From: an uncultured Bacteroidia bacterium
GTDB lineage: Bacteria; Bacteroidota; Bacteroidia; Bacteroidales; UBA932
DNA length: 64,000 nucleotides
Direction: 5' to 3'
Assembly: GCA_902781705.1 (NCBI GenBank)
Contig: CACZKE010000012.1
Span: 1 to 64,000 of the forward strand
The first letter of the stretch is position 1. Every line of letters begins with the position of its first letter. Both the position numbers and the translations under genes were made by a program. Shown in pieces: positions 3,450-25,051 of this stretch. The notes under the pieces were generated by a model. The model made no database searches. It had not been told where the DNA came from and was given only the letters and a program-made list of their open reading frames with translations.

Positions 3450-3461
3450 TCCGACTGCCTT

Positions 3462-5027: not shown

Positions 5028-5048
5028 TTCTTATAAAGGAATAAAGCA

Positions 5049-6752: not shown

Positions 6753-8789
<2,037 letters not shown>

Positions 8790-8799
8790 ACCCATCGAT

Positions 8800-11052
8800 A
8801 TGAAAAAGAATTGCCTCCTCGTCCCGGCCGTCCTGCTGGTGGCCGCGTGCGCAACGGCTCCGTCCCCGCAGGACCGGCTCACCGTCAATGACAAGAAGAT
8901 CGAGCAGGTCATCGCCCAGATGACCCTGGAAGAGAAGGTGAACATGCTCCACTCCAAGACCAACATGTCTTCGGCTGGCGTGGAGCGCCTGGGCATCGCC
9001 GACATGCACTATGCCGACGGCCCCTTCGGCATCCGTGAGGAGGGCGTCCCGAACGGCTTCCAGTCTGCGGGCTGGACGCTGGACTCCGCGACCTATTTCC
9101 CGACGGGATCGGCCCTCGCGGCCACCTGGTCCAAGGAGATGGCCTACCTTTACGGAACCGGCATGGGCATGGAAGCGCGCCTCCGCGGCAAGGATGTCAT
9201 CCTGGGCCCGGCCATCAATATCCAGCGCCTCCCGGTCGGTGGCCGCACCTATGAGTACCTGAGCGAGGATCCGATCCTCTCCGCCGCCCTGGCCCTGGAA
9301 TACACCAAGGGTGTCCAGGATAAGGGAACTGCGGTGTGTATCAAACATTTCGCTGTAAATAACCAGGAAACCAACCGCGGCTCCGTGGATGCCCAGGTGG
9401 ATGAGCGCACCCTGCGCGAGATCTACCTCAAGCCCTTCGAGAGCGCCGTCGTGGAAGGTGGTGCCATGAGCGTCATGCCGGCCTACAACAAGGTCAACGG
9501 CGACTACTGCTCCGAGAACGGGCACCTGCTGAACGAGATTCTTCGCGGCGAGTGGGGATTCAAGGGCTTCACCGTTTCCGACTGGGGCGGCACGCACAGC
9601 ACCATGGGCGCCATGCTCCATGGCCTGAACGTCCAGATGACGGGCTCGAACTACCTGGGCCAGCCGGTCATCGACTCCATCGCCACCGGCGCCCTTACCG
9701 AGGACCTGGTGAATGAGAAGGTGAAGCAGATTCTCCGTGTCCGCTACGCCATCGAGGCTATTCCGGACGATGTGGCCAATACGAAGATGACATCCCAGCC
9801 GGAGAGCCAGGACATCGCGAAGCGGGTGGCCGAGAAGTCCATCGTCCTCCTCAAGAACGAGGGCGTGCTCCCGATCGCGAAGAGCGTGAAGAAGATCGCC
9901 GTCATCGGCCAGAACGCCGTCCTGAAGACCCAGAGCGGTGGCATGGGTGCCGGCGTGAAGGCTCTCTATGAGGTGACTCCGCTCGAAGGTATCCGCAAGC
10001 GTGCCGGTGCCGATGTCCAGGTGACCTATGCCCCTGGCTACAAGAACTTCCCGGGCCGTCGCTGGGGACCCGCCCCGGCCGAGCCGAATCCGCTGGAAGC
10101 TACCGCCATCGACGAACCGGCCGATCCCGCCCTCCTCGCCGAGGCTGTCGCCCTGGCGAAGGATGCCGATCTGGTCATCTTCTTCGGCGGCACCAACAAG
10201 AGCATCGAGACCGAAGGTTCCGACCGCAAGGACATCAACCTCCCGACCGGTCAGAACGAGGTCGTCGCCGCCCTGCACGAGGCCAATCCGAACCTCGTGA
10301 CCGTCCTCATTTCCGGTGGTCCTACCGACCTGCGCCAGCTGGAGCCCGTCTCCTCGGCCATTGTCCAGGGCTGGTGGAACGGCACCGAAGGCGGTACGGC
10401 CCTTGCCGAAGTCCTCTTTGGCGACATCGCTCCTTCCGGCAAGCTTCCGTTCACTTTCCCGATGCAGCTGGAAGACTCGCCGGCCTACGCGATGGGCAAT
10501 TTCCCGGATCCGAACGCCGGTGGCGACCTGTTCACCCTGATGTACCGCCAGGATGTCCTGAAGATGACTCCGGCCGAGCGCCAGGCCTTCCTCGATTCCC
10601 TCCCGAAGCCCGTCTCCAAGTACACCGAAGGCTCCCTGGTGGGCTACCGCTGGTATGACACCAAGAACGTGAAGCCGATGTACGCCTTCGGCCACGGCCT
10701 CTCCTATGTGGACTTCGAGTACGGTGCCATGAAGGCTTCTGCCAAGAAAGATGTCGTGAAGGTTACTTTCAACCTCACCAACAAGGGTGGCATGAGCGCC
10801 GACGAGGTCGTCCAGCTCTATGTCTCCCGTCCGGAGGCCACCGTCGAGTGGCCGGTGAAGGAACTCAAGGCCTTCGACCGTGTCACCCTCGCCGCCGGCG
10901 AGACCAAGACCGTCACCCTCGAGATCCCCGTGAAGGACCTCCGCTACTGGAACGTGGACAAGAACGCCTGGGACCTCGAGCGCGGCAAGCTCGTCCTCCT
11001 TCTCGGCTCCGCCTCCGACGACATCCGCCGGCAGGCCGAAGTTACCATCTAA
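8800..11052 (+). CDS. GH3 beta-glycosidase, lipoprotein
   Basis: A 750-residue glycoside hydrolase family 3 enzyme. The start at ATG 8800 gives a lipoprotein signal (VLLVAAC, Cys17), whereas the longer frame upstream lies inside the esterase gene. Features: TIM-barrel with KHFAVNNQE and nucleophile Asp261 in TVSDWGG, the alpha/beta sandwich with probable acid/base Glu470 in IETEGSDR, and a C-terminal fibronectin-III-like domain (VVQLYVSRPEATVEWP). GH3 enzymes release glucose, xylose or arabinose from non-reducing ends; the sequence resembles beta-glucosidases, but exact specificity cannot be set. It starts 10 bp after the esterase. Confidence 0.95.
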   Translation: MKKNCLLVPAVLLVAACATAPSPQDRLTVNDKKIEQVIAQMTLEEKVNMLHSKTNMSSAGVERLGIADMHYADGPFGIREEGVPNGFQSAGWTLDSATYFPTGSALAATWSKEMAYLYGTGMGMEARLRGKDVILGPAINIQRLPVGGRTYEYLSEDPILSAALALEYTKGVQDKGTAVCIKHFAVNNQETNRGSVDAQVDERTLREIYLKPFESAVVEGGAMSVMPAYNKVNGDYCSENGHLLNEILRGEWGFKGFTVSDWGGTHSTMGAMLHGLNVQMTGSNYLGQPVIDSIATGALTEDLVNEKVKQILRVRYAIEAIPDDVANTKMTSQPESQDIAKRVAEKSIVLLKNEGVLPIAKSVKKIAVIGQNAVLKTQSGGMGAGVKALYEVTPLEGIRKRAGADVQVTYAPGYKNFPGRRWGPAPAEPNPLEATAIDEPADPALLAEAVALAKDADLVIFFGGTNKSIETEGSDRKDINLPTGQNEVVAALHEANPNLVTVLISGGPTDLRQLEPVSSAIVQGWWNGTEGGTALAEVLFGDIAPSGKLPFTFPMQLEDSPAYAMGNFPDPNAGGDLFTLMYRQDVLKMTPAERQAFLDSLPKPVSKYTEGSLVGYRWYDTKNVKPMYAFGHGLSYVDFEYGAMKASAKKDVVKVTFNLTNKGGMSADEVVQLYVSRPEATVEWPVKELKAFDRVTLAAGETKTVTLEIPVKDLRYWNVDKNAWDLERGKLVLLLGSASDDIRRQAEVTI

Positions 11053-11057
11053 GCTTT

Positions 11058-12332
11058 ATGTGCAGACCGATGATCCTTGGGGTTGCCCTGCTTGCCGCAG
11101 CGTGCGGCCCCAGGCCTTCTGCCCGGGTGGAGAAGGTCGAACTGTGCACCGTCGTAGGCGACTACGGCCTGGAGGCGGACGCCATTGAGATCACCGTTTC
11201 CAATCCCCGTTCCCTGAAGGGATTGAAGGCGGAGGATTTCGACCTCGTGAACAATGTTCCTGCTGCTTTCATCGACGCGGCTACCGGCCAGGCGCCGGTT
11301 GAATACGCCGACGACGGCATCGTCCTGTCCGTGAATAAGAACGTCCTTCGCATCGACGCCAAGCCTTTCCACAAGGCAGGCAAGCCGGAAGGCTGGTTCA
11401 AACGCATTCCCTGGGAGTTGCACTGCGCTGTGGACTCCGCCCTCAATGTCACCGCCGCGCAGGTCACCGGAGAGCATATCGCCGTCCTGGACGACTGCGA
11501 GACCGGGTCCTTCACCTTCGGCGGCCTGACGCGGGAGTACATGCTACATCTGCCCAAGGATGCCGACGGCAAGGTCATCCCGAACGCGCCTCTGCTCGTG
11601 TGGCAGATCGGCGGCGGCGAGTATGACAAGGACCTGATGACGGTGGCGACGGCCAACCGCTGCCTGGTTTCCCTGCCCACGGAGGGCGTTCCCTGTGCCA
11701 CGCTCGTATTCGCGCTCGCCAATCCGAACTACCATTACAGCGCCTCCCTGTATCCTGAAAAGATTGAATTGATCGACCGCAACAACGCCCTCCAGATGGC
11801 CTTCATCGACCAGCTGATTGCCGAGGGAAAGGTCGATGGCGGCAGACTCTTCTGCGCCGGCGCCTCCAGCGGCGGCGGCTGCACGATGCGCTTCATGATG
11901 CAGTTCGCGGACCGCTTCAAGGCGGCCATCCCTTGCTGCTCCATGGACCCGATCGTCCCCATCCACCAGGTTGAGGAGAAATATCCCGGCCAGTATGCCG
12001 ACGACGTGGAGAAAGTCTGGCGCGGCGACTGCGTCTATCGGTGGAACGGCACGGACATGGTGCTCTCTCCGATGGACATTGACGCTTTCGTGAAGCTCCC
12101 GATGTACTTCGTCCACGCCGAGACGGACCGCACCTGCAAGGTGGCCAGCACCTATGCCTACACCGAGGCCCGCAGGCGCCTGGGCGCTGCGGATGACAAG
12201 ATGCTCATCTACAGCGACGAAGACCTCGTCCGCTGGGGTGTCGCCCCGATGATGGCCCACTTCTCCTGGGTCCCTCTCCTGGACGACTATTCCGAGGGCA
12301 GTCCGATGGACTGGCTGGTGAAGAAGATGTAA
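11058..12332 (+). CDS. lipoprotein alpha/beta hydrolase (PHB-depolymerase/esterase-like)
   Basis: 424 residues from ATG 11058 (a second ATG at 11070 is equally plausible). A lipobox (LLAAAC, Cys16) is followed by an Ig-like N-terminal region (~20-150) and an alpha/beta-hydrolase domain with a GXSXG-type site in CAGASSGGG (Ser270) and a likely catalytic His near the end (MMAHFSW). The layout resembles bacterial polyhydroxybutyrate-depolymerase-like or feruloyl-esterase-like lipoproteins. It starts 5 bp after the GH3 stop and is the last gene of the plus-strand locus. Substrate unknown; an esterase role in the same locus is inferred. Confidence 0.78.
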   Translation: MCRPMILGVALLAAACGPRPSARVEKVELCTVVGDYGLEADAIEITVSNPRSLKGLKAEDFDLVNNVPAAFIDAATGQAPVEYADDGIVLSVNKNVLRIDAKPFHKAGKPEGWFKRIPWELHCAVDSALNVTAAQVTGEHIAVLDDCETGSFTFGGLTREYMLHLPKDADGKVIPNAPLLVWQIGGGEYDKDLMTVATANRCLVSLPTEGVPCATLVFALANPNYHYSASLYPEKIELIDRNNALQMAFIDQLIAEGKVDGGRLFCAGASSGGGCTMRFMMQFADRFKAAIPCCSMDPIVPIHQVEEKYPGQYADDVEKVWRGDCVYRWNGTDMVLSPMDIDAFVKLPMYFVHAETDRTCKVASTYAYTEARRRLGAADDKMLIYSDEDLVRWGVAPMMAHFSWVPLLDDYSEGSPMDWLVKKM

Positions 12333-12346
12333 CTGTATGCCTTGGG

Positions 12347-13141
12347 CTAGAGTTTTATGCTTTTCTTGAGGCGGATGTCCTCGGAGGAGGCTCCGACGAG
12401 AAGCTTGGCTTTCCGGCCCCGGAAGGCCCAGGCATGGGTCTGGCTGTCCCAGAGCTTCAGGTCTTCGGCAGGGACCACGATTTCCACGGGGACCGTCTCT
12501 CCGGCCTTTACGGGGATGCGTTCGAAGCCGCGGAGACGCTTGGACGCGTCGTCGCCCTTGAACTTGGCGTACAACTGGACTACTTCCTCGCCATCGCGGG
12601 ATCCGGTGTTCTTGAGGTCGAACCGGACCACATAGTTGTCACCGTCCTTCTTCACTTTCAGGCGGGAATACTTGAAGGTGGTGTAGCTGAGACCGAAGCC
12701 GAACGGAAAGAGGGGCTTTGCCCTGGCATACATGTAGGTGCGGCCGTGGCGGATGTCATAGTCCAGCATGTTCGGAAGGTCCAGGATGTCCCGGACCCAG
12801 GTCTCACCGATGCCGTAGGCCTGGGGGAAAGCGGTGCTGTTCCGGTACTTGGGCGCCGGACGATTGTTGTTGGAACCTCCCCGGAGTGCCGGCAGGTCGG
12901 TGGCGCCGCCGCGCACGATGCCGTGGATGGCCTCCGTGGACCCGGGTCCGGCGATTCCCAGGCGCGGAACGCCCTGTCCCACGAGCGTGGCGATTTTTTC
13001 ATCGACCGTCATGAGGGAGACGGCATTGTCCAGGCGTTCCTCTTCGGAGAGCTTCGTGTCCTGGAAAGGGTGCTCTTGGGCGCGGAGCGGGGCTCCGGCT
13101 GTCAGGATCAGAATCAGCGCGCAGGTCACAGGTCTTTTCAT
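12347..13141 (-). CDS. internally deleted GH3-family protein lacking the catalytic core
   Basis: 264 residues with a signal peptide (ending LRAQ). Residues 28-115 match the N-terminal start of GH3 xylosidase/glucosidase-type proteins (LSEEERLDNAVSLMTVDEKI ... FPQAYGIGETW). From about residue 116 the sequence jumps to the C-terminal part of a GH3 protein (DLPNMLDYDIRHGRTYMY, FPFGFGLSYTTF) and a complete fibronectin-III-like domain. The several hundred residues carrying the nucleophile Asp and acid/base Glu are missing, yet the frame is intact. ATG at 13141 is chosen because it opens the signal peptide. It has its own TAnnTTTG promoter. Either a decaying pseudogene, a binding-only relic, or an assembly deletion. 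Confidence 0.8.
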   Translation of the reverse strand: MKRPVTCALILILTAGAPLRAQEHPFQDTKLSEEERLDNAVSLMTVDEKIATLVGQGVPRLGIAGPGSTEAIHGIVRGGATDLPALRGGSNNNRPAPKYRNSTAFPQAYGIGETWVRDILDLPNMLDYDIRHGRTYMYARAKPLFPFGFGLSYTTFKYSRLKVKKDGDNYVVRFDLKNTGSRDGEEVVQLYAKFKGDDASKRLRGFERIPVKAGETVPVEIVVPAEDLKLWDSQTHAWAFRGRKAKLLVGASSEDIRLKKSIKL

Positions 13142-13165
13142 CGTGCCGTAATTATTTGTTTTACA

Positions 13166-13173
13166 CAAAGATA
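13166..13173 (-). promoter_or_regulatory. TAnnTTTG -7 box (TATCTTTG) for the GH3 relic
   Basis: Reverse complement of 13166-13173 reads TATCTTTG, 24 bp before the ATG at 13141. It suggests the deleted GH3 gene may still be transcribed. Confidence 0.55.
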
Positions 13174-13190
13174 TGAATACTTTGGGATAT

Positions 13191-13226
13191 AAAAAAGGGA
13201 ACCTGTGCCGTTCAGGTTCCCTTTTA
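13191..13226 (-). terminator. Rho-independent terminator of the esterase at 13249
   Basis: A GGGAACCTG / CAGGTTCCC stem with a 7-nt loop, flanked by A and T runs. On the minus strand it lies 23 bp after the esterase stop and is followed by six T. Confidence 0.85.
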
Positions 13227-13248
13227 TCGGATCCGTGATCCGCCAGCC

Positions 13249-14427
13249 CTACTTGAAGAGCTTCGGGGCGAAGGTGTTTAGGTACAGGCGCCAGTTGGCC
13301 CAGGTGTGACCGCCTTCGGAGACGAAGTACTCGTGCGGGAAGTTCAGGTCGTCGAGTTTCGCGTGCATCTGCTCGGCCCGCTGGAACAGGAAGTCCGTGT
13401 TGCCGCAGGCGAGGAAGTAGAGCTTCACGCCGGCCTTCTTGAGGGCGGCAAGCTGCTCGGGCGTGGCGTCACCGGCCGCGGAGAGAGGGCAGATGTAATC
13501 GAACAGCTCCGGATACAGGACGGAAGCGGAGATGGTGTGGCCGCCGCCCATGGACAGGCCGGCGATGGCGCGGGAAGCGGGCTTGGGAATGGCACGGAAG
13601 TTCTTCTCGATGAAGGGGACGATTTCGGTGCAGAGGCTCCGGACGTAGCCGTTCATAAGGAGGTCGCGCTCGGCTTCGCTCATCTTGGCCATGGCTTCAC
13701 GGTCCCAGCGCATCTGCATGGGCTTCTCGGGAATGCCCAGGGTGCGGGCGGCCGCCTGGTTGGCGTTGCCGTTGGGCATGACGACGATCATCGGCTCGGC
13801 AAGGCCCTTCTCGATGAGGTTGTCGAGGATCTGGGCGGTACGGCCCATGGAGGTCCAGGCCTCTTCGTCACCGCCGGCGCCGTGCAGCAGGTACAGGACC
13901 GGATACTTCTTCTTGGGATTGGCTTCGTAGCCGTACGGGGTATAGACGGTCAGGCGGCGGTCCATGCCCAGAAGTTCGCTGTGGTACCAGGGATGGCTTA
14001 CGGTGCCGTGCTTGGTCGCTTCACCATAGTTCTCGGTGCGCTCGCCGGGGACGATGAGCATCGGGAGGTAGCGGGTGCCGTCGCGCTGGACATACACGTT
14101 CTGCGGATCGTTGACCGCGACGCCGTCCACGACGAAATTGTAGGTGTAGATTTCCGGCTCCGGGAGGGGAATCTTCACTTCCCAGACATTGTTCTCGCCG
14201 CGCTGCATGTCGATGGTGCCGCCCCAGGGGTTGGGCATCCAGGAACCGCTGAGTTTGACGACGGTGGCGTAGTCGGCCTTCAGGCGGAAGGTCACGCTGT
14301 CGTTCTGGATTTCCGGAGAGATGACGGGCTTCTGACGGCCGCCGAAATTGAAGTTGGCCAGTTCCTGGGCGTTCATCGCACTGGCGAGGGAGAGGCACAG
14401 GAGGGCAGAGGTGAAAAAGTGTTTCAT
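13249..14427 (-). CDS. CE1-like esterase with N-terminal E-set domain
   Basis: A 392-residue secreted protein (signal peptide 1-20) with the same layout as the esterase at 7575: N-terminal beta-sandwich (~35-125, YTYNFVVDG) and a CE1-type alpha/beta-hydrolase with LLHGAGGDEEAW, Ser292 in GLSMGGGH, Asp in GNTDF and His in EGGHTW. Its own promoter (TATCTTTG at 14477-14484) and terminator make it a single-gene unit on the opposite strand from the SusCD operon. It carries an insertion relative to 7575 (KPMQMRWDREAMAKMSEAER) between the hydrolase strands that may shape the binding site. Confidence 0.9.
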   Translation of the reverse strand: MKHFFTSALLCLSLASAMNAQELANFNFGGRQKPVISPEIQNDSVTFRLKADYATVVKLSGSWMPNPWGGTIDMQRGENNVWEVKIPLPEPEIYTYNFVVDGVAVNDPQNVYVQRDGTRYLPMLIVPGERTENYGEATKHGTVSHPWYHSELLGMDRRLTVYTPYGYEANPKKKYPVLYLLHGAGGDEEAWTSMGRTAQILDNLIEKGLAEPMIVVMPNGNANQAAARTLGIPEKPMQMRWDREAMAKMSEAERDLLMNGYVRSLCTEIVPFIEKNFRAIPKPASRAIAGLSMGGGHTISASVLYPELFDYICPLSAAGDATPEQLAALKKAGVKLYFLACGNTDFLFQRAEQMHAKLDDLNFPHEYFVSEGGHTWANWRLYLNTFAPKLFK

Positions 14428-14476
14428 GATGAAAGGCTTTATGATGATTCCGTTTTCGTGTTCCGTGGATCTGTTG

Positions 14477-14484
14477 CAAAGATA
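14477..14484 (-). promoter_or_regulatory. TAnnTTTG -7 box (TATCTTTG) for the esterase at 13249
   Basis: Perfect match to the consensus on the minus strand, 49 bp upstream of the ATG at 14427. Confidence 0.55.
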
Positions 14485-14556
14485 ACGCGCTTCAATGAGT
14501 CGGACAGTATCCTCCTGTTCAATCTTTTCTCCCTTTGTTTAAAATGGGGAAAAACG

Positions 14557-15915
14557 CTACTGGATGTCGAATTCCTGCTTGAAGGGCTTGTCGTGTTTGT
14601 AGGCGTCCCAGCCGGGGTTGCCGTCGCGGCAGAAGGCCGTCCAGGCGTCCAGCATCCGCTCCGAAAGGGCATAGTCGGCCTCGGTGAAGGGGCGCCAGCT
14701 GCGGGAGAGGGTGCCGAACATGTACCAGAGCTCGGCGGAATGGAAGGCGCCGGCTGCGGACTTCGGATGCGCCTCATCGGTGGGGAGTTCGCGGAGGAAC
14801 TCGTATTCGTACACCGGGAAGCCCAGGGAGTCGCGGACGGCGCAGAAGCGGTCCACCGCCTCGCCGGCGAGCATGCCCATGTCGTCTTTGTTGTAGCCGA
14901 TCATCACCGGGACCGGCGCCATGGACCCGTCGTACAGGGCCTGGTCGAAATCCTCCGTGAGGACTTTGCCGTCGATGTGCGGGGACAGCATCACCCAGCC
15001 TTTCCCGTCGGCGGAATACTTGCCGGAGGCGGCAAACACGGTTTCGGCGGATGCGCTCCGCATCAGGGACAGGTCCGTGAGACCGGAGTGGTCCATGATG
15101 GCCTTCCCCTGCTCGTCATAGAAAGACTGCGGGATGCCGCCGGTCGGGGAGAGGGATCGGAGGCCGATGCCGCCGCCGCTCTGGATGATGGCTCCGGCGA
15201 GCAGGTCGCGGGAGAGGGGAGAAACCAGGAGGTTCTTCACGCTCATGGCGCCGGCGCTCTGCCCGAAGACGGTAATCCGGGACGGGTCGCCGCCGAATGC
15301 TGCAATATTGTCGTGAACCCATTGCACGGCCGCAATCTGGTCCATCATGCCGTAATTCCCGGACCGGCCCTGTTCGGCCGTCAGTTCGGGATGGGACAGG
15401 AATCCGAACGTGCCCAGACGGTAATTGATGGTGACGAGGATGACTCCCCGTTTCGCCCATTCGTCACCGTCCATGGTGACTTCGTAGCCGTAGCCGTTCA
15501 TGAAAGCGCCGCCGTGGACCCACAGGGCGACCGGGAGTCCGGCTTCCGGCTTCCCGACAGTCTTGGCAGGGGCCCATACGTTCAGGTACAGGCAGTCCTC
15601 GCTGGGCTCCGGTGTACCTTCCCAGTAAAATTCGTCGCCGTAGAAGGTGCCGGGTGCATTGCCGGGCTGCCAGGCGATGGGACCGAACGTGTCGCAGGTG
15701 CGGACCCCTTCCCAGGGCGTCACCGGCTGCGGCGCCTGCCAGCGGAGGCCGCCCACGGGCGGGGCGGCATAAGGGATGCCTTTGAAGACGGTGACCTCGG
15801 GGTTTTCGGATGCGATACCCTGGATCTTCCCGCCGGAAACGGTGATGACGGGGACTCCGGCCGTGCAGGCGGTCAGGAGCGTAACGAGGGACAGTGCGAT
15901 CAGTTTGTTTTTCAT
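14557..15915 (-). CDS. type-B carboxylesterase, lipoprotein
   Basis: 452 residues from ATG 15915, which gives a lipobox (TLLTAC); the longer upstream reading lacks a signal. The type-B carboxylesterase pattern is clear: VFKGIPYAAPPVG, SEDCLYLNVW, HGGAF oxyanion region, FGQSAGA with nucleophile Ser220, and a catalytic His in FHSAELWYMF. It is the complete counterpart of the fragment at the left edge. At 452 residues it is a little shorter than usual (~500). Located between the GH3 relic/esterase unit and the cytochrome operon; likely a periplasmic acyl-ester hydrolase of unknown substrate. Confidence 0.92.
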   Translation of the reverse strand: MKNKLIALSLVTLLTACTAGVPVITVSGGKIQGIASENPEVTVFKGIPYAAPPVGGLRWQAPQPVTPWEGVRTCDTFGPIAWQPGNAPGTFYGDEFYWEGTPEPSEDCLYLNVWAPAKTVGKPEAGLPVALWVHGGAFMNGYGYEVTMDGDEWAKRGVILVTINYRLGTFGFLSHPELTAEQGRSGNYGMMDQIAAVQWVHDNIAAFGGDPSRITVFGQSAGAMSVKNLLVSPLSRDLLAGAIIQSGGGIGLRSLSPTGGIPQSFYDEQGKAIMDHSGLTDLSLMRSASAETVFAASGKYSADGKGWVMLSPHIDGKVLTEDFDQALYDGSMAPVPVMIGYNKDDMGMLAGEAVDRFCAVRDSLGFPVYEYEFLRELPTDEAHPKSAAGAFHSAELWYMFGTLSRSWRPFTEADYALSERMLDAWTAFCRDGNPGWDAYKHDKPFKQEFDIQ

Positions 15916-16036
15916 GGGATGGCGGTTTTCTGTCGGAAAGGTACGGAATCCCGGCGGATTTCCCAAATGGACGGGACATCCGGATAAACTTTTGAAAACC
16001 TGGTAAAATAATACGGGGATTTTCCCTCTTTTTTCG

Positions 16037-16044
16037 TATCTTTG
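16037..16044 (+). promoter_or_regulatory. TAnnTTTG -7 box (TATCTTTG) of the cytochrome operon
   Basis: Perfect consensus match, 17 bp before the ATG at 16062. The start of the three-gene operon 16062-19877 is therefore well placed. Confidence 0.6.
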
Positions 16045-16061: not shown

Positions 16062-17582
16062 ATGGGAAAGAAACGTATCATCTGGGGCGCCCTTCTCGGG
16101 GGATTGGCACTGGGCATCGTGTCGATGGTGGCCTTGGTGTCCGTGGACACTTACACGTCCACGAACGACTCCTGCATGCGCTGCCATTACCATGAGGAGG
16201 CCGATCTGCTCTGGAAACAGTCTTCCCACTATCTGAATGGGAGCGGCGTCGTCACCGACTGCGCTGCCTGCCACCTTCCTCCAAAAGAAGACGGCATCGC
16301 CCGTTACTACATGGTCAAGATCAAGATGGGCGCCAAGGACATGTGGGCGAAGATGACGAAGGACAAGGACGGGATTGACTGGGCCGCCAAGCGTTCCGTG
16401 GACCATGCCGAGCGGATCGTCTATAACGCCTCCTGCCTGAAATGCCACCAGGACCTGTTCCCGGAAGGAATCAGCGACGACGGCATCGCCGCCCACCTCT
16501 ACTACGAAGAGAACGCCGAAAAGCTCCATCTTTCCTGTGTCAGCTGCCATCTCAACGCCGGCCACTATATCGAAGGTTACACCCATCAGAAACTGAAGGG
16601 CAAGGTCGATACCGGCAGCGGCGAAATCTATGAGGCGCCGGCCGCCCCCGAACGCTTCGAATCCTTCACGGAAACCGTTCCCGGAACCAATGCCGCCATC
16701 CGGATGGTCGCCGTTCCGGGCGGCGAATTCCTGCTGGGAAGCCCGGAGAAAGAGCCGCGTCGCCGCAACGACGAAGGCCCGCAGAAGCGGGTCCGCATCT
16801 CCCGCTTCTTCATGGCGGAGACCGAGATTACCTGGCGTCAGTTCTGGAGTTTCTACAACGAAACCATGTCCGAGGGACGTACGCCGCCCGCCGTCGTCTA
16901 TGAAGCCAACAGCCGTCCCGGCCTGGATGCCGTCACCGGTCCCACGCCGCCTTTCGGCCTGCCCGACCAGGGCTGGGGCATGGGAGACCGTCCGGCCATC
17001 ACCATGACGCATTACGCCGCGGAGACCTTCTGCCTGTGGCTGTCGCTCAAGACCGGCAAGCATTACCGCCTTCCCACGGAAGCGGAGTGGGAATATGCCG
17101 CCCGCGGCGGTACCGATACGCCCTACTTCTTCGAGGGCGACCCCAAGCGCTACGACCCGCAGGGACTGCGTCGCCTCTTTGGAGCAGACACCACGATGAT
17201 CGCCCGCTATGTGGTGTACAACGGTAACTCCCCGGCCCATACGCAGGAACCTTCCTGGATCAAGGCCAATCCCTTCGGCCTCAAGAACATGCTCGGTAAC
17301 GTGATGGAATACTGTTCCGACCGGTATGCCCCGGATGCCTACTACAGGATTTCCGATGGCGCCCTGGATCCGAAGGGCCCTCAGGACGGCGAGGAATTCG
17401 TCGTCCGCGGCGGCTCCTATGCCGATGCCGCCGGCGACGTCCGCTGCGCGGCCCGCAGCCATACCCGTCACGACGACTGGCTGCGTACGGATCCGCAGAA
17501 CCCCAAGAGCATCTGGTGGTACTCCGATGTCAAGGCCATCGGCTTCCGCGTCGTCTGCGAAGTGCCTGAAAATATTGAATAA
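16062..17582 (+). CDS. NrfH/NapC-like tetraheme cytochrome c fused to a SUMF1-type domain
   Basis: 506 residues. Residues 6-28 form one membrane anchor. Four heme-binding CXXCH motifs follow at Cys38, Cys67, Cys125 and Cys159; spacing and the ending CHLNAGHYIEGYTH resemble NrfH, the quinol-oxidising subunit of cytochrome c nitrite reductase. Residues ~210-500 are a formylglycine-generating-enzyme-like (SUMF1) fold: VAVPGGEFLLGS, TEITWRQFW, RLPTEAEWEYAARGG, GNVMEYC, VRGGSY, RCAAR, GFRV. The two copper-binding cysteines of true FGE (between GGSY and RCAAR) are absent, so sulfatase activation is unlikely. No nrfA is nearby. It leads an operon with an exported Gfo/Idh/MocA oxidoreductase (18 bp gap), so it may link that enzyme to the quinone pool; this is inference. 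Confidence 0.9.
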   Translation: MGKKRIIWGALLGGLALGIVSMVALVSVDTYTSTNDSCMRCHYHEEADLLWKQSSHYLNGSGVVTDCAACHLPPKEDGIARYYMVKIKMGAKDMWAKMTKDKDGIDWAAKRSVDHAERIVYNASCLKCHQDLFPEGISDDGIAAHLYYEENAEKLHLSCVSCHLNAGHYIEGYTHQKLKGKVDTGSGEIYEAPAAPERFESFTETVPGTNAAIRMVAVPGGEFLLGSPEKEPRRRNDEGPQKRVRISRFFMAETEITWRQFWSFYNETMSEGRTPPAVVYEANSRPGLDAVTGPTPPFGLPDQGWGMGDRPAITMTHYAAETFCLWLSLKTGKHYRLPTEAEWEYAARGGTDTPYFFEGDPKRYDPQGLRRLFGADTTMIARYVVYNGNSPAHTQEPSWIKANPFGLKNMLGNVMEYCSDRYAPDAYYRISDGALDPKGPQDGEEFVVRGGSYADAAGDVRCAARSHTRHDDWLRTDPQNPKSIWWYSDVKAIGFRVVCEVPENIE

Positions 17583-17600
17583 CATATAATTGCAACCCTT

Positions 17601-18959
17601 ATGAGCTCAAAGATGAACAGAAGGTCCTTCCTCACGACCACCGCCGTCGTCGGCGCGGCCGGCCTGGTGGGCGGACAACTCCTCACCGCCTGCTCCGGCG
17701 GAAAAAAGGAATCCAAGGTCACCCCGCTCCGGGAACCCGGCTCCTATTACGTCCCCGAATTGCCGGACAAGGCCATCGACGGCCGTCCCCTCAAGGCCGG
17801 TCTCATCGGCTGCGGCGGCCGCGGCACCGGCGCCGTGGGCGATCTCCTCGCTGCGGCGAACGGCATCACCATCACCGCCCTCGGCGACGTGTTCCCTGAC
17901 AGGGTCCAGGCCGCCCGGGAGGCCATCGCCGAGAAGCATGGGCAGGAAGTCCCTGAGGATCATTGCTTCACGGGCTTCGACGCCTATCAGAAGGTCATCG
18001 ACTCTGGCGTGGACATGGTCATCGTGGCCACCCCGCCCGTCTTCCGTCCGACCCATTTCCAGTATGCCACCTCCAAGGGCGTCCACTCCTTCCTGGAGAA
18101 ACCCATCTGCGTGGATGCCAAGGGCTATCGGACCATCATGGCTACGGCCAAGCAGGCCGAGGCCAAGGGCCTGAGTGTCGTGACGGGCACCCAGCGCCAT
18201 CATGAGCGTCCCTATGTGGCGGCCTTCCAGAAGATCCAGGAAGGCCTGATCGGCGAGATCACCGGCGGAAATGTCTATTGGAACCAGGGCATGCTCTGGT
18301 ACCGGGAGCGCCAGAAGGGCTGGAGCGACATGGAATGGATGATCCGCGACTGGGTGAACTGGTCCTGGCTTTCCGGCGACCATATCGTCGAGCAGCATGT
18401 CCACAACATCGACGTGTTCAACTGGATGAACGGATACAAGCGTCCGGTCCGGGCGACCGCCTTCGGCAGCCGCCAGCGCCGTATCACCGGCGACCAGTAC
18501 GACAGTTTCAGCGTCGACTTCGAGTATGAGAACGGAGTCCATCTCCACAGCATGTGCCGGCAGATCGACGGCTGCTCGAACAACATCAGCGAGGAAGTCC
18601 GGGGAACGAAGGGCTACTGGCGATCCGCCGATGACGCTATCTTCGACCTCAGCGGGAACAAAATCTGGGAATTCGACTACGAAACCATGCGGGCGACCTA
18701 TTCCCAGGAGAACTCCTATGTCCTCGAACACGTGGACTGGGTGAACCACATCCGGAAGGGCGAAATGCACAACGAGGCGACCGAATGCGGCATCTCCTCC
18801 CTTTGCGGCATCATGGGCCGCGAAGCCGCCTACACCGGCAACACCGTCACCTGGGACGAGATCAGCGCCTCCGAGATGGACCTCCTGCCGGAGAAACTGG
18901 AACTGGGCAAGATGGACATGGGCAAATATACCGTTCCGGTTCCCGGTTCGGGCAAATAG
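17601..18959 (+). CDS. Tat-exported Gfo/Idh/MocA oxidoreductase, lipoprotein
   Basis: 452 residues. The N-terminus has a twin-arginine motif (NRRSFL, Arg7-Arg8) and a lipobox (LLTAC, Cys31), so it is exported folded, probably with bound NAD(P), and lipid-anchored. The Rossmann motif is AGLIGCGGRGTGA; the family EKP motif is at Glu166-Lys167-Pro168, and the catalytic-region histidines are in GDHIVEQHVHNIDV (His261-His268). Members oxidise sugars, for example to 3-keto-glycosides. Being extracytoplasmic, the cofactor must be recycled in place, and the tetraheme cytochrome encoded 18 bp upstream is a candidate partner. The isomerase gene follows after 9 bp. Confidence 0.92.
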   Translation: MSSKMNRRSFLTTTAVVGAAGLVGGQLLTACSGGKKESKVTPLREPGSYYVPELPDKAIDGRPLKAGLIGCGGRGTGAVGDLLAAANGITITALGDVFPDRVQAAREAIAEKHGQEVPEDHCFTGFDAYQKVIDSGVDMVIVATPPVFRPTHFQYATSKGVHSFLEKPICVDAKGYRTIMATAKQAEAKGLSVVTGTQRHHERPYVAAFQKIQEGLIGEITGGNVYWNQGMLWYRERQKGWSDMEWMIRDWVNWSWLSGDHIVEQHVHNIDVFNWMNGYKRPVRATAFGSRQRRITGDQYDSFSVDFEYENGVHLHSMCRQIDGCSNNISEEVRGTKGYWRSADDAIFDLSGNKIWEFDYETMRATYSQENSYVLEHVDWVNHIRKGEMHNEATECGISSLCGIMGREAAYTGNTVTWDEISASEMDLLPEKLELGKMDMGKYTVPVPGSGK

Positions 18960-18968
18960 TTCGCGCGT

Positions 18969-19877
18969 ATGGATAGGAAAACCTTTCTGAAGACCTCTCT
19001 CGCCGGTGCCGCCGCCCTCATGGCCGCGCCCGGCACTGTCATCTCCTGCGCTTCTTCGAAGGAGGAGAAAAAGTCTTCCGCCACGCCGCTTCGCCTCTCC
19101 TTCCAGGAGGGCGTCACCCCGGGAGAGACCCTCTCCGAGAAACTGGACTTCATGGAAAGTCTGGGCATTACCGGCTTCGAGCCCGGTGGCAAGGGGCTTT
19201 CCGGCCGGGTCAATGAGATCCAGGAAGCCCTGAAAGGCCGTGATATCCAGGTTTCAGCCATCTGCGCCGGTTTCGACGGCTTCATCCTGGCCGAAGATCC
19301 GGCTGTGAAGGCGCAGTTCGACACGACCATGCGGGACATCGTCCGCGCGGCCGGCGAACTCGGCTCCACGGGTGTCATCATGGTTCCGGTATTCAACTGG
19401 CAGACGCCCTCCCTCCCGCACACGCTGGAGACGCGCGACTTCCTCTGCGCCCAACTCCACGATCTCGGTGAATTCGCCCTCAGTTGCGGAACCACCGTCA
19501 TCCTGGAACCGCTCAACCGCAAGGAAGCCTTCTATATGCGCCTGGTGAGCGATGCCGCCGCCATCTGCCGCGATGCCGGCAGCGCCGGCGTCAAGTGCAT
19601 GGGCGACTTCTGGCACATGCAGGAGGAAACCTCCGACTACGCCGCCTTCATGTCCGCCGGCTCCTACCTGCAGCACGTCCACATCGCCAGCCGTGGCAAC
19701 CGCATCATGCCCGGCGAAGACGGCGACGTCGACAACTATGTCGATGGTTTCCGCGCCCTCAAGGAACTCGCCTATCCGCACTACGTCAGTTTCGAGTGCG
19801 GCTGCCGCTCCGAAGACCGCGCCGCCACCCTCACCGCCGCCGTCAACCTGCTCCGCACCCAGTGGGAACAGGCCTAA
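18969..19877 (+). CDS. exported TIM-barrel sugar isomerase/epimerase, lipoprotein
   Basis: 302 residues of the xylose-isomerase-like TIM-barrel family (AP_endonuc_2). The signal (DRKTFLK ... VISC, Cys27) looks like a Tat-type or Sec lipoprotein leader. Likely metal ligands are Glu in ILEPLNR, Asp in GDFWHM, His in HVHIASR and Glu in FECGC. In similar clusters these proteins act with Gfo/Idh/MocA oxidoreductases on keto-sugars, as epimerases, isomerases or dehydratase-like enzymes; the exact reaction here is not known. It is the last gene of the cytochrome operon, followed by a strong terminator. Confidence 0.87.
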   Translation: MDRKTFLKTSLAGAAALMAAPGTVISCASSKEEKKSSATPLRLSFQEGVTPGETLSEKLDFMESLGITGFEPGGKGLSGRVNEIQEALKGRDIQVSAICAGFDGFILAEDPAVKAQFDTTMRDIVRAAGELGSTGVIMVPVFNWQTPSLPHTLETRDFLCAQLHDLGEFALSCGTTVILEPLNRKEAFYMRLVSDAAAICRDAGSAGVKCMGDFWHMQEETSDYAAFMSAGSYLQHVHIASRGNRIMPGEDGDVDNYVDGFRALKELAYPHYVSFECGCRSEDRAATLTAAVNLLRTQWEQA

Positions 19878-21676: not shown

Positions 21677-22564
21677 TTACTTCACGTAGGTGGCCTTCAC
21701 GAAGGGGGCGTTCAGGAGGTAGTCGGCGCTCTCGACGAAACTCTTGCGGATGTCTTCGTAGCTGTAGCGCTCGATCTCCACGACGAAGTTCTCGAGACCG
21801 GCGAGTTCGGCGTTCTTGAAGATGGCGTCGAAGCCCACCATGCCGCTCTGGCCCACTTCCCATTCGTCCTTGATGTGGAGCATCTTGAAACGGCCGGGAT
21901 AGCGCTTGAAGTAGTCCACCGGGGAGGCCTTGCCGATAACGGCCCAGTACACGTCCATCTGGAAGAATACCAGTTCCGGATCCGTGTGCTGGAGCATGTA
22001 GTCGTACATCACCTGGTCTTCCACCTTCTCGAACTCGTAGGCGTGGTTGTGGTAGCCGTACTTGATGCCGGCGGCCTTGCAGCGGCGGCCTACTTCGTTC
22101 AGGTAGTCACAGTAGACCTGGAGATCCTTGAGGGTTTCCTGGAGGCCTATCCAGGGAGTGACGATGTACTCCATGCCGGCCTTCTTGTGCACCTCGATGC
22201 ACTTGTCCCACCAGGCGAGGGCGGCCGTGAGGTCACCGCTGTCCAGTTCTTCGCGGGACAGGCCGCGGGAGACATGGGCGGAAAGGACCTTCATGCCGGC
22301 GGCTTCCACCTTCTGCTTGAAGACCTCGGGGGTGTCCCCGTAGATGAGACCGTTGTCGCCGTCATAACTGGCGGCCTCGACGGCGGTGTAACCCATCGCC
22401 GCGATCTCCTTCAGGATGTCGGCGTAGTTGTCATGATTGAGGATGCTGCGGGCGGAGTACATCTGCACGCACATATCCTTCTTCACGGGAGCGGCTTCCT
22501 TGGGAGCACAGGACGGAATCGCGACCATGGCGAGGAGGGCCAGGGAAAGAATGCCGATTTTCAT
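21677..22564 (-). CDS. exported TIM-barrel sugar isomerase/epimerase, lipoprotein
   Basis: 295 residues, xylose-isomerase-like TIM-barrel (AP_endonuc_2), with a lipobox (AIPSC, Cys19). Probable metal and active-site residues lie in YHNHAYEFE, QMDVYWA, MLHIKDEW and FVVEIER. It follows the DUF1080 gene by 4 bp. The set Gfo/Idh/MocA + DUF1080 + isomerase matches clusters known from Bacteroides thetaiotaomicron (BT2156-BT2160 region) that act on glycosides through 3-keto intermediates. It is only distantly similar to the isomerase at 18969, so the two probably catalyse different steps. Confidence 0.9.
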   Translation of the reverse strand: MKIGILSLALLAMVAIPSCAPKEAAPVKKDMCVQMYSARSILNHDNYADILKEIAAMGYTAVEAASYDGDNGLIYGDTPEVFKQKVEAAGMKVLSAHVSRGLSREELDSGDLTAALAWWDKCIEVHKKAGMEYIVTPWIGLQETLKDLQVYCDYLNEVGRRCKAAGIKYGYHNHAYEFEKVEDQVMYDYMLQHTDPELVFFQMDVYWAVIGKASPVDYFKRYPGRFKMLHIKDEWEVGQSGMVGFDAIFKNAELAGLENFVVEIERYSYEDIRKSFVESADYLLNAPFVKATYVK

Positions 22565-22568
22565 GGGA

Positions 22569-23420
22569 CTAGTCCATCAACTTGATCCGGATGTTGCGGT
22601 ACCAGACGTCGTCGCCGTGGTCCTGCATGCCGATGTAACCCTCGTGGTTCTCGCCACCGCAGTTGTTCAGGAGTTCGAAGGCGAGGGGCCAGTCCTTCTC
22701 GGAGAACTTGCTGGCCTGGAGCATGTCGGTCCACTGCTGGGTCCACAGGTGGTACTCGAGGACCTTCACGTCGTTCTGGAAGTGCACGACGGTGCCCTTG
22801 TACACGAGGATCTTGGTCTTGTTCCACTCGCCGAAGGGATTCTGGTTCTGCGGAACGGCCGGGATCATGTCATACAGGGAGGCGGACTGGCGGTTTCCGT
22901 CCACGCCGAGGAGGGCGTCCGGATGGTTCGCATTGTCCAGCACCTGGTACTCGGGAGCGGAGATGTAGATGGGCTCATAGCGGTCGGCACCGTTCTCGTC
23001 CTTGGTGGTCACTTCCTTGGCGAGGTAGAAGATGCCGGAGTTGCCGCCCTTGGAGATCTTCCATTCGAGCTCCAGGGTGAAGTTCTTGAAGTTGTGGGCG
23101 AAGATGATGTCGCCGCCCTCGCCGGTCTGGCCTTCGCCGGTACCGGTGCCGCTGAACTTCAGGCAGCCGTCCTCGATTCCCCAGCGGGCCGGGAGGGTCT
23201 CCTTGCCGTAACCGCGCCATCCGTTGGTGGAGGTGCCGTCGAACAGGACGATGTAGCCTTCGTCATCGACCGGGAAGGTGGAGAGGTCCACCTGCGGGGC
23301 ATCGACCACGGTGTAGGCCGGCGCAGCGGGTTCGGCCGTCTTCTTCTTTCCCTGGTTGCCGCAGGAAACGGTGCTCACCAGAAGGGCTGCCACAGCAGCA
23401 AATGCAAGAATCTTTTTCAT
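22569..23420 (-). CDS. DUF1080 / 3-keto-disaccharide hydrolase-family lipoprotein
   Basis: 283 residues with a lipobox (VSTVSC, Cys20). The domain PF06439 (concanavalin-like fold, named 3-keto-disaccharide hydrolase) is supported by IVLFDGTSTNGWRG near the start, DFTLELEWK-like FTLELEWKISKGGNSGIFY in the middle, PEYQVLDN, and the C-terminal GYIGMQDHGDDVWYRNIRI. The family cleaves 3-keto-glycosides by elimination or hydrolysis. It lies between the oxidoreductase (20 bp upstream) and the isomerase. All three are exported, so the chemistry is periplasmic or on the surface. Confidence 0.94.
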   Translation of the reverse strand: MKKILAFAAVAALLVSTVSCGNQGKKKTAEPAAPAYTVVDAPQVDLSTFPVDDEGYIVLFDGTSTNGWRGYGKETLPARWGIEDGCLKFSGTGTGEGQTGEGGDIIFAHNFKNFTLELEWKISKGGNSGIFYLAKEVTTKDENGADRYEPIYISAPEYQVLDNANHPDALLGVDGNRQSASLYDMIPAVPQNQNPFGEWNKTKILVYKGTVVHFQNDVKVLEYHLWTQQWTDMLQASKFSEKDWPLAFELLNNCGGENHEGYIGMQDHGDDVWYRNIRIKLMD

Positions 23421-23440: not shown

Positions 23441-24916
23441 TTACGGAAGTTCGGGAAGCGTCCAGCCCTCGCGGAAGACCGGCTTGATGAGTTCCTCGGC
23501 GAACTTGTTGGCGTCCACCGGATCGGTATAGACATTCTCGAAGGTGGGATGGCCGTCGGTGATGGAGAAGCCGTCGTGGATCATGGTCTTGATGGTCGCA
23601 CCGGCCGGGATGTTCGTGAACTTCATGTTCTGGCCGTCCCACTCCAGTTCCTGGTTCAGGCCCTGCAGGCGCACGGCGACGACACCCATGGCCACCATCT
23701 CGTTGAACGGGCCGGCCTCGGAGAAGTCGGAGGCGCTGGGGGTGCGGTAGTCCGGATGCTCCTTGCAGGCGCGGATCCAGTCCTGCTGGTGGCTGAGCTT
23801 GATCTCGCGGTGGATGTGCGGGACTTCCGGATTGCGGCCGGAAAGGAGGTACGGATTCACGCCGTAGCAGCCGCAGATGAGGGTGTCCTTCGTGCCGTAG
23901 AAGATCACGCAGCCGCCGTTGTCGTTGAGGTTCTTGCCGGCAGGAAGGCCTTCCGGACGGTCCGGGAGGATGCCGCCGTCGGTCCAGGTCACCGTGACCT
24001 CGGGCATGGCCACCTTGGGCAGGTTGTCACGGGCGGGGAACACGAAGCGGACCTTCTCCGCCTGCGGGCAGGATTCGGTGAGGAGGGCGGTGGAGCTGCC
24101 CTGGACCTTGGTCGGATAGCCGAGCTTCAGGGCCTTGAACACCGGGTGGAGGATATGGCAGGCCATGTCGCCGAGAGCGCCGGTGCCGAAGTCCCACCAG
24201 CCGCGGAAGTTCCACGGGGTATAGATGGAATGGTACGGACGGTACGGGGCCGGTCCCAGGAAGAGATCCCAGTCGAGGGTCTTGGGGACTTTCTCCGCCT
24301 TGGCGGGACGCTCCAGGCCCTGGGGCCAGATGGGACGGTCGGTGAAGGCCTCCACGCGGGTGACTTCGCCGATTTCGCCGTTCCAGATCCAGTCGCAGAT
24401 CTTGCGGACGCCTTCGCCGGAAGCACCCTGGTTGCCCATCTGGGTGGCCACGCGGTACTTCGCCGCCAGCTTCGTCAGGAGGCGGGACTCATAGACCGTC
24501 CGGGTGAGCGGCTTCTCGCAATAGACGTGCTTGCCGGCCTGGATGGCCGCGGCGGCGATGATGGCGTGCGTGTGGTCGGCGGTGGCGACCATCACGGCAT
24601 CGGCCTCATCCAGCAGTTCGTCGAACATGACCCGCCAGTCCTTGTAGCGCTTGGCCTGGGGATAGCGTTCGAACACGTGGGCGGCGTATTTCCAGTCCAC
24701 GTCGCAGAGGCCGATGATGTCCTCGGTCTCGAGTTCCCTCAGGACGGATGCGCCACGGCCGCCGATGCCGACGCCGAGGATCTTGAGTTTGCGGTCAAGC
24801 GGTGCCGGGGCTTCGTTCTCGTCCTTGGCGAACACTTTGCCGGGCATCATGGACAGCCCGAGGGCCGCTGCCGTTCCTGTCTTCAGGAAGGATCTTCTTG
24901 AAATCTCTTTTGCCAT
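23441..24916 (-). CDS. Tat-exported Gfo/Idh/MocA oxidoreductase
   Basis: 491 residues from ATG 24916, which starts a clear Tat leader (SRRSFLKTG, ending VFAK); the longer upstream reading is AT-rich and lacks signals. The Rossmann motif is ILGVGIGGRGAS, the EKP motif is in HVYCEKPLTRT, and the central part has GTGALGDMACHILHP with the probable active-site His. Unlike its counterpart at 17601 it has no lipobox Cys. It heads the minus-strand operon oxidoreductase-DUF1080-isomerase and likely oxidises or re-reduces the C3 position of a glycoside. Its cofactor would have to be recycled outside the cytoplasm. Confidence 0.93.
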   Translation of the reverse strand: MAKEISRRSFLKTGTAAALGLSMMPGKVFAKDENEAPAPLDRKLKILGVGIGGRGASVLRELETEDIIGLCDVDWKYAAHVFERYPQAKRYKDWRVMFDELLDEADAVMVATADHTHAIIAAAAIQAGKHVYCEKPLTRTVYESRLLTKLAAKYRVATQMGNQGASGEGVRKICDWIWNGEIGEVTRVEAFTDRPIWPQGLERPAKAEKVPKTLDWDLFLGPAPYRPYHSIYTPWNFRGWWDFGTGALGDMACHILHPVFKALKLGYPTKVQGSSTALLTESCPQAEKVRFVFPARDNLPKVAMPEVTVTWTDGGILPDRPEGLPAGKNLNDNGGCVIFYGTKDTLICGCYGVNPYLLSGRNPEVPHIHREIKLSHQQDWIRACKEHPDYRTPSASDFSEAGPFNEMVAMGVVAVRLQGLNQELEWDGQNMKFTNIPAGATIKTMIHDGFSITDGHPTFENVYTDPVDANKFAEELIKPVFREGWTLPELP

Positions 24917-24951
24917 ATCAGTTTTTGTGTTAAGTGTGTGCGATATTTCCT

Positions 24952-24959
24952 CAAATATA
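24952..24959 (-). promoter_or_regulatory. TAnnTTTG -7 box (TATATTTG) of the minus keto-sugar operon
   Basis: Consensus match on the minus strand, 35 bp before the ATG at 24916, in an AT-rich stretch. Confidence 0.5.
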
Positions 24960-25051
24960 ATGAAAATATGCGGATTTGTCCTCTTTTTTTGCAATAACCG
25001 TGGAATTCTCAGTATCTTGAGCACATAAAACGACTTCCTTTATAAAAATGA

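Follow-up and report, generated by a model that had tools for sequence, protein, structure and literature searches.

The DNA analysed here is a stretch of 64,000 nucleotides from an uncultured Bacteroidia bacterium (Bacteroidales, UBA932 lineage; positions 1 to 64,000 of contig CACZKE010000012.1, assembly GCA_902781705.1), referred to below as the window. On its plus strand, a 506-amino-acid (aa) open reading frame (ORF) carries, in one frame without stops, the Pfam domains Cytochrom_NNT and FGE-sulfatase, i.e. a tetraheme cytochrome fused to a SUMF1-type domain. It is followed, after gaps of 18 bp and 9 bp, by the genes of a putatively exported oxidoreductase of the Gfo/Idh/MocA family (GFO1) and of a xylose isomerase-like protein (ISO1) (Table 1). 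An earlier note on this DNA had read the same three genes, i.e. a single polypeptide joining an NrfH-type cytochrome (four CXXCH) to a SUMF1 domain, an exported Gfo/Idh/MocA lipoprotein and an exported isomerase, as a respiratory-linked keto-glycoside system. The Pfam searches bear out this domain make-up and the twin-arginine translocation (Tat) signal of GFO1, the lipobox of GFO1 and the export signal of ISO1 being recognised by eye.

The genome to which the window belongs (3.07 Mb, 43 contigs, 98.97% complete) holds a single match to the NapC/NirT family PF03264, namely the fusion itself. As the earlier note had stated for its surroundings, no nitrite reductase accompanies it: a profile search for NrfA (PF02335) found none in this genome, to which that result applies. 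One ApbE gene is present, on a different contig from the fusion. Upstream of the fusion, TATCTTTG resembles TAnnTTTG, the consensus of the Bacteroidota -7 box, and is a candidate for such a box; the two-box promoter pattern gave no match there.

Table 1. Features of the fusion operon, of the neighbouring operon and of a gene family found beside fusion operons in other genomes (positions are those of the window unless a locus is named).
Feature	Position	Strand	Basis
TATCTTTG, resembling a Bacteroidota -7 box	16037..16044	+	likeness to the consensus TAnnTTTG
Fusion protein: membrane-anchored tetraheme NapC/NirT-type cytochrome with SUMF1-type domain	16062..17582	+	Pfam, homologues, structure model
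Predicted N-terminal helix, aa 2-32, likely membrane anchor	16065..16157	+	structure model, predicted local distance difference test (pLDDT) about 90
Heme motif 1, CMRCH followed by Y-H (CXXCHxH; NrfH, CXXCHxM)	16173..16187	+	CXXCHxH in 54/54 fusions
Heme motif 2, CAACH	16260..16274	+	CXXCH count
KIKMGAKD, aa 86-93; in an alignment K86 and D93 correspond to K82 and D89 of Desulfovibrio vulgaris NrfH	16317..16340	+	alignment
Heme motif 3, CLKCH	16434..16448	+	CXXCH count
Heme motif 4, CVSCH	16536..16550	+	CXXCH count
SUMF1/FGE-fold domain, aa 214-468	16701..17465	+	Pfam FGE-sulfatase, E 2e-37
Loop DAVTGPT, aa 289-295; candidate flavin mononucleotide (FMN) site T295	16926..16946	+	one residue off the ApbE motif D-x-x-[ST]-G-A-[ST]
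GFO1, Tat-exported Gfo/Idh/MocA oxidoreductase; lipobox-like LTAC by eye	17601..18959	+	Pfam GFO_IDH_MocA, TAT_signal
ISO1, xylose isomerase-like triosephosphate isomerase (TIM) barrel; export signal by eye	18969..19877	+	Pfam AP_endonuc_2
ISO2, TIM-barrel isomerase/dehydratase-like, neighbouring operon	21677..22564	-	Pfam
3-keto-disaccharide hydrolase domain protein (DUF1080), neighbouring operon	22569..23420	-	PF06439, E 2e-46
GFO2, BT_2158-family glycoside 3-dehydrogenase, neighbouring operon	23441..25024	-	838.5 bits, cut-off 750
Regulator-like family	L036:6895-7836, L037:11106-11969, L038:11832-13148, L039:6950-7756, L046:11790-12563		beside fusion operon

The Cytochrom_NNT domain (aa 5-169, E 2e-22) places the N-terminal half in PF03264, as it scores 80.2 bits against a curated cut-off of 24.1 and carries four CXXCH motifs (aa 38, 67, 125 and 159), a number found in all 54 fusions counted. 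Among solved structures, D. vulgaris NrfH comes closest (2J7A; E 0.0025 with the domain alone, 1e-4 with a profile of the family alignment A2 described below). The quinol-site aspartate of NrfH, D89, is matched by D93 of the fusion, and each of 15 diverse fusions has both K86 and D93 (the NrfH numbers were counted on the alignment with the fusion). In the available portion of PMC10654088, Met49 and Asp89 of NrfH are reported to be necessary for the oxidation of menaquinol and D89 is the distal ligand of heme 1; Met49 is named as a heme-1 ligand there and in the available portion of PMC8840924. With the NrfH/NapC/NirT family the fusion thus shares the N-terminal anchor helix, the four CXXCH motifs and the aligned quinol-site residues, but it is joined to a SUMF1 domain, and its genome yielded no NrfA. 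On these features the N-terminal half looks like a NapC/NrfH-type quinone cytochrome. Features that define NrfH proper are missing: the Met ligand is replaced in the first heme motif, NrfA was not found in the genome and the score for the NCBIfam NrfH equivalog (54.6 bits) stays under its cut-off of 134.2. No NrfH occurred among the best 50 of 118 Foldseek matches of the structure model.

The best structural match of the SUMF1 domain is PvdO (Foldseek E 4e-17; template modelling score by target 0.78), which also tops the profile search; FGE and, lower, PorK come next in the Foldseek order. The domain shares the fold and the RLPTEAEWEYAAR core with FGE, PvdO and PorK/GldK, but differs from the FGE- and EgtB-type members in its lack of metal ligands. 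Neither of the positions that we take to be the copper cysteines of FGE is Cys in the alignment (judged by eye against L113), and the three-His iron site of EgtB/OvoA was not found, no His or Cys being conserved at 90% within aa 200-506 of the 60 family sequences. It is therefore unlikely that the domain is a metal enzyme like FGE or EgtB, and catalysis of either type was rejected as its function. Each of 15 fusions retains the cysteines C324 and C418, and 14 of them retain C499; C324, present in 51 of all 60 family sequences, is the only one of the three that is widespread in free-standing relatives. These residues may have some role. In the structure model the SUMF1 core is confident and residues 271-291 fall below a pLDDT of 50.

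The alignment of 60 family sequences (A2) drew on 59 of the 80 loci of a genome-collection scan, and so did the set of 45 free-standing loci treated below. The other 21 (L088, L091, L092, L094, L095, L097, L098, L100, L102-L105 and L107-L115) were truncated, had a stop in the matched range or were distant, and were left out both of A2 and of the free-standing set; a GFO-type match accompanies seven of them, and in one, L092, GFO1 and ISO1 come after a fragment of the fusion.

GFO1 matches PF01408, and an alignment of 49 sequences keeps G70, G72, G75 and E166-K167-P168 at the 90% level, so that it has both the NAD-binding Rossmann domain (NAD, nicotinamide adenine dinucleotide) and the EKP lysine expected of the Gfo/Idh/MocA family. 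Its nearest solved relative is the glucuronide 3-dehydrogenase 8TDI (E 4e-8), with inositol dehydrogenases close behind in the list, a likeness that suits a role as a sugar dehydrogenase.

The fusion is a real and conserved protein. In a search of 199 genomes of the same family some match was obtained in 129, and 45 full-length fusions (that of the window included) were listed in 40 genomes at 52-100% identity, together with one cut by a contig end; the full-length homologues in the 39 genomes besides the window's own (52-75% identity) mean that the join did not arise by chance. The remaining matching genomes gave shorter stretches, mostly of the SUMF1 half. Fourteen further full-length fusions (L036-L049) came from the genome collection, in Parabacteroides, Tannerella, Dysgonomonadaceae, Sunxiuqinia, Maribellus and other Bacteroidales or Bacteroidetes. 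The search for the fusion in other genomes, proposed in the earlier note, was thus productive, and the constant association with Gfo/Idh/MocA genes, which the note wished to have tested, holds in part. We read 60 neighbourhoods, i.e. that of the window, the 14 of the collection and 45 from family genomes (one cut; L180, a different stretch of the window's contig, was excluded). A GFO1 homologue adjoins the fusion in 44, starting at most 400 bp downstream in 43 and lying directly upstream in one (L041), and is missing beside the other 16, which all belong to genus g20 (10 genomes) and four of which are limited by contig ends (L175, L194, L245 and L247). An ISO1 homologue follows in 33 of the first 54 loci, and several Bacteroidales families have the same gene order, with identities as low as about 48%. 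Six g20 genomes (G115, G163, G093, G038, G081 and G155) hold a second fusion (L242-L247, one cut by a contig end); neither copy adjoins GFO1 in these genomes, and the second stands beside a gene for a FabG-like reductase (by eye).

In 10 of 54 loci (L036 and L160-L168) the operon continues after ISO1 with cytochrome c maturation genes of the CcsB/CcsA type. In L036 they form a single 729-aa protein with PF05140 and PF01578; the other nine were called by sequence cluster and by PF01578 matches at those places. PF01578 (CcsA-type) was found in 28 of 31 fusion genomes, as against 9 of 20 relatives without a fusion, both sets being picked by hand.

Beyond Bacteroidales fusions, the wider SUMF1 family is mostly free-standing, with N-termini that look exported. 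Its hosts are Flavobacteriaceae, Sphingobacteriaceae, Chitinophagaceae and other Bacteroidota, as well as Planctomycetota and Verrucomicrobiota, with single members in Acidobacteriota, Rhodothermota and Balneolota. Of 45 such relatives, 32 have a GFO-type gene at a distance of at most 500 bp. In 40 of the 45 the chain has no CXXCH, and the gene met most often beside them encodes a dehydrogenase; at most free-standing loci no further ORF with CXXCH was seen. The remaining five, all verrucomicrobial, carry one or two cytochrome c domains of the PSCyt1 type ahead of SUMF1 (L055, L056, L058, L064 and L077); GFO lies within 500 bp in L056 only, and ApbE is beside L077. A quick SUMF1 tree, in which the ApbE labels follow an earlier list of 15, unites the NrfH-fused rows in a single group (Shimodaira-Hasegawa-like approximate likelihood ratio test 100) and places the PSCyt1-fused rows elsewhere. 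This separation, together with the different type of cytochrome, speaks for separate origins of the two kinds of fusion.

The gene of the FAD:protein FMN transferase ApbE recurs beside the free-standing proteins. ApbE lies within 2.5 kb of 17 of the 45, L077 among them (it was Pfam-confirmed in six loci, i.e. the SUMF1 loci L053, L061, L074, L083 and L237 and the locus L232, and called in the others by BLAST to these); no ApbE was seen at the 14 fusion loci of the collection. A second sample comprised 42 genomes with a match, 39 of them with SUMF1-only matches, and the best match per genome was used. ApbE stood within 2 kb of it in 10 of the 39 (G200, G278, G283, G320, G332, G348, G413, G498, G557 and G590), where copy number and genome size predict 0.11, a figure to be read with the non-independence of related genomes and a possible sharing of species between the two samples. 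In G409 ApbE is within 2 kb of a second SUMF1 match and in G425 it is 2.7 kb away; in the rest it is farther off or on another contig. ApbE itself occurred in every one of the 46 genomes searched, of which seven carry a fusion, the sole control being 7 of 14 well-known genomes.

The known substrates of ApbE were also sought in these genomes. FMN_bind had no match in nine of the ten ApbE-adjacent genomes and three in G332. The single ApbE of G200 and of G320 is beside SUMF1-GFO1, and no FMN_bind, DUF2271 or DUF3570 was found in either genome. Two ApbE genes are present in G557 and G348, one with DUF2271 and one with SUMF1, and three in G278 and G498, one each with DUF2271, DUF3570 and SUMF1; G413, G590 and G283 have two, with a substrate partner assigned for one. 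That every ApbE here serves SUMF1 was not upheld, the only ApbE of G490 adjoining an exported Gfo/Idh/MocA protein with an exact DGVSGAT. In that locus (L232:5704-7937) ApbE directly adjoins the Gfo/Idh/MocA enzyme, whose motif lies near residue 322 and which is possibly flavinylated directly, and a DUF1080-like protein comes next. Another cluster, L237:1-8359 of G200, encodes on one strand SUMF1, GFO, ApbE, ISO, a transporter-like protein (by eye), a GMC-like oxidoreductase and a second Gfo, and thus NAD-type and flavin adenine dinucleotide (FAD)-type dehydrogenases together.

A further peculiarity of the family within the SUMF1/FGE fold is a loop that fits D-x-x-[ST]-x-[AP]-[ST] in 52 of the 60 sequences of A2. 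The Asp is present in all 60 and [ST] in 52, followed by Arg (24) or Gly (22); the loop ends in Pro (50) or Ala (10), then Thr (44) or Ser (16). In the portion available of PMC12052999 the target motif of ApbE is D-x-x-[ST]-G-A-[ST], and replacement of its Ala by Val leaves about half of the flavinylation. Seven of the 60 loops match this motif exactly. All 54 fusions read D[AG][IV][ST]G[PA]T, three of them in the canonical form, and the loop of the window has Pro in place of Ala. The pattern D..[ST].[AP][ST] was found in none of the 49 GFO1 rows examined, and GFO1 was rejected as a target of ApbE for this reason. The constant spacing of Asp and hydroxyl residue, the adjoining ApbE and the motif-free GFO1 together make the SUMF1 protein the best candidate for the ApbE substrate in ApbE-bearing operons.

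Based on these observations, we suggest that the fusion is a membrane-bound electron-transfer subunit passing electrons from GFO1 through the SUMF1 domain and the hemes to menaquinone, a reading to which we assign a probability of roughly 55%. On the outer side of the cytoplasmic membrane GFO1, exported with bound NAD(P) (NAD or its phosphate), would oxidise a sugar or polyol to a keto product, which ISO1 would isomerise. Anchored in the membrane by the cytochrome, the SUMF1-type domain would dock GFO1 and accept its electrons, and the tetraheme NapC/NirT module would hand them singly to menaquinone. In lineages without the heme module a flavin attached by ApbE would probably serve the SUMF1-GFO1 pair, and in some Verrucomicrobia the fused PSCyt1 cytochromes would do so instead. 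Two separate cytochrome fusions and the ApbE neighbours of other lineages point to electron transfer: gene order, domain make-up and conservation go together with a repeated linkage to one-electron carriers. They suggest that the SUMF1 domain is an adaptor, possibly flavin-carrying, that wires exported dehydrogenases to respiration. The transfer of electrons from NADH to menaquinone is downhill by textbook potentials, so that sugar oxidation with quinone reduction would be the favoured direction. From the sequences we infer complex formation, the kind of substrate, this direction (donor to quinone) and FMN on the domain.

Several observations weigh against this proposal. Within the cytochrome, the first heme motif has His where NrfH has Met in every fusion, and four covalent hemes are needed, although no PF01578 (CcsA/CcmC-type) protein was found in the window's own genome, one of the three fusion genomes of 31 without it; heme attachment is accordingly not supported there. 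Either the gene lies outside the assembly, or another route of heme attachment is used, or this copy of the fusion is not fully functional. The link to GFO1 is interrupted in the g20 fusions, in 13 of the 45 free-standing relatives (no GFO within 500 bp, including four of the five PSCyt1 fusions) and in 14 of the 21 left-out loci. As to the flavin, the motif loop is modelled at low confidence, Pro replaces Ala in most loops and Arg replaces Gly in many ApbE-adjacent members, 11 of the 17 free-standing ones reading TRPT or TRPS. The exact motif occurs in the free-standing members L062, L063, L075 and L079, none of which has ApbE within 2.5 kb (the right flank is missing for L063), and G324, G467, G484 and G490 have a single ApbE that is not beside SUMF1. 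Exact-motif members without ApbE and ApbE-adjacent members off the motif weaken the idea of flavinylation. The bolder version of the proposal, in which the SUMF1-type domain represents a novel class of electron carrier flavinylated by ApbE, with FMN on the loop Thr/Ser taking hydride from Gfo-held NAD(P)H and releasing electrons singly, in Bacteroidales to hemes and menaquinone, i.e. an extracytoplasmic NAD(P)H-to-quinone relay in at least three phyla, is tentative and, in our opinion, rather doubtful. The earlier idea of a respiratory-linked system is supported in part: the conserved fusion, the adjacency of GFO1, the failure to find nrfA in this genome, the maturation genes and the cytochrome fusions and ApbE neighbours of other lineages speak for it, the g20 exceptions and the lack of a CcsA match in the window's genome against it.

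Given a second substrate, Gfo/Idh/MocA enzymes can also regenerate their NAD(P) themselves, as GFOR does. Were GFO1 a self-recycling periplasmic enzyme without net electron transfer, SUMF1 would be a scaffold or substrate binder and the cytochrome would serve another respiratory enzyme. The match of the SUMF1 fold to PorK/GldK, which we take to be scaffolds, the lack of other CXXCH ORFs at most free-standing loci and the 16 fusions without GFO1 agree with this; we nevertheless find it unlikely, since two kinds of cytochrome are fused to one domain family, ApbE stands beside SUMF1 far above chance and no other NapC/NirT protein was found in the window's genome. An enzymatic role of the SUMF1 domain, in which menaquinol would feed electrons through the hemes to a PvdO-like domain that acts on a small molecule by reduction or oxidation, with GFO1 and ISO1 acting up- or downstream on the same compound, appears quite unlikely as well. 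The leading position of PvdO in both searches, the habit of NrfH-type proteins of giving electrons outwards, the conserved acidic and aromatic residues, the highly conserved loop and the invariant C324 and C418 of the fusions favour it, but the family has neither a 90%-conserved His or Cys nor an FGE/EgtB metal site, and most free-standing relatives stand next to a dehydrogenase and have no heme motif of their own. It is very unlikely that the protein is an ordinary NapC-like quinol dehydrogenase of anaerobic respiration, adjoined by sugar genes merely through inheritance of the locus. Such a view would accommodate the Cytochrom_NNT score and the presence, at 5 of 14 fusion loci, of a neighbouring regulator of hemerythrin-like and/or LuxR type, but not the gene order kept over several Bacteroidales families, the absence of a detectable nrfA in the genome or the SUMF1-GFO1 link in lineages without the cytochrome. 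The regulator-like family comprises in L036 a hemerythrin and a LuxR-type helix-turn-helix; the hemerythrin has Pfam support in L036 only, and the L038 member has no Pfam match at all. A regulator responsive to nitric oxide or oxygen is a possible function of this neighbour.

Keto-glycoside chemistry, which the earlier note attributed to the fusion operon, finds support in a neighbouring operon rather than in this one. GFO1 scores 22.1 bits with the NCBIfam equivalog of the BT_2158 glycoside 3-dehydrogenases (cut-off 750), and the member of that family in the window, GFO2, lies 1.8 kb from the fusion operon in a separate minus-strand operon with the DUF1080 protein and ISO2. There is good evidence from sequence families that this second operon is the site of the keto-glycoside chemistry. 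In the periplasmic 3-keto-glycoside pathway of the BT2156-2160 type, BT2158 is described as a periplasmic glycoside 3-dehydrogenase (available part of PMC11300592) and BT2157, a DUF1080 protein, is a 3-ketotrehalose hydrolase (available part of PMC9007349). The fusion operon resembles that pathway in combining exported Gfo/Idh/MocA proteins and isomerases, but GFO1 is outside the BT_2158 family and no DUF1080 gene accompanies it. A further comparison is offered by the lactose 3-dehydrogenase LacABC. It is an FAD/GMC-type enzyme with a cytochrome c, whereas the dehydrogenase of the fusion operon is of the NAD(P)-binding Gfo/Idh/MocA type. The two would be alike in membrane-bound periplasmic sugar 3-oxidation (for LacABC, available part of PMC9007349).

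Upstream of the fusion operon (333-15966) the window contains a SusC/SusD-type pair, then esterases, a GH3-like enzyme and a carboxylesterase, with a feruloyl-esterase-like ORF at 7575-8789, and this region looks like a polysaccharide utilisation locus. A 273-aa ORF within it (12347-13168, minus strand) has a GH3-like start (by eye) and an Fn3-like end (Pfam), and its catalytic middle is apparently missing; it looks like an internally deleted glycosidase gene.

Related exported redox systems are described as swapping cytochrome and ApbE-linked flavin (available portions of PMC8238504, eLife 2021, and PMC11334425, mSystems 2024), as the modules described here appear to do, but most SUMF1 loops are off the canonical motif. 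The available text of PMC8238504 contains no mention of sulfatase, formylglycine, Gfo or MocA, and that of PMC11334425 none of SUMF or sulfatase. Among open-licence full texts we found no description of NrfH or ApbE with SUMF1, which is weak evidence of novelty; among the matches listed, none ties FGE terms to NapC, NrfH or flavinylation, and those listed for Gfo/Idh/MocA with cytochrome c and SUMF1 look unrelated by title.

As far as these searches reach, the module around exported Gfo/Idh/MocA enzymes is real, conserved and undescribed, and its wiring role, suggested by gene linkage and sequence, would have consequences beyond this gut-type bacterium. In Bacteroidota and Planctomycetota, Tat-exported members of the Gfo/Idh/MocA family are widespread. 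A conserved partner joining them to hemes or flavin would offer a testable answer to the question of how their NAD(P) is regenerated on the far side of the membrane, and periplasmic sugar oxidation in anaerobes would thereby be linked to respiration. A branch of the SUMF1 fold that seems to be uncharacterised so far would also gain a function.

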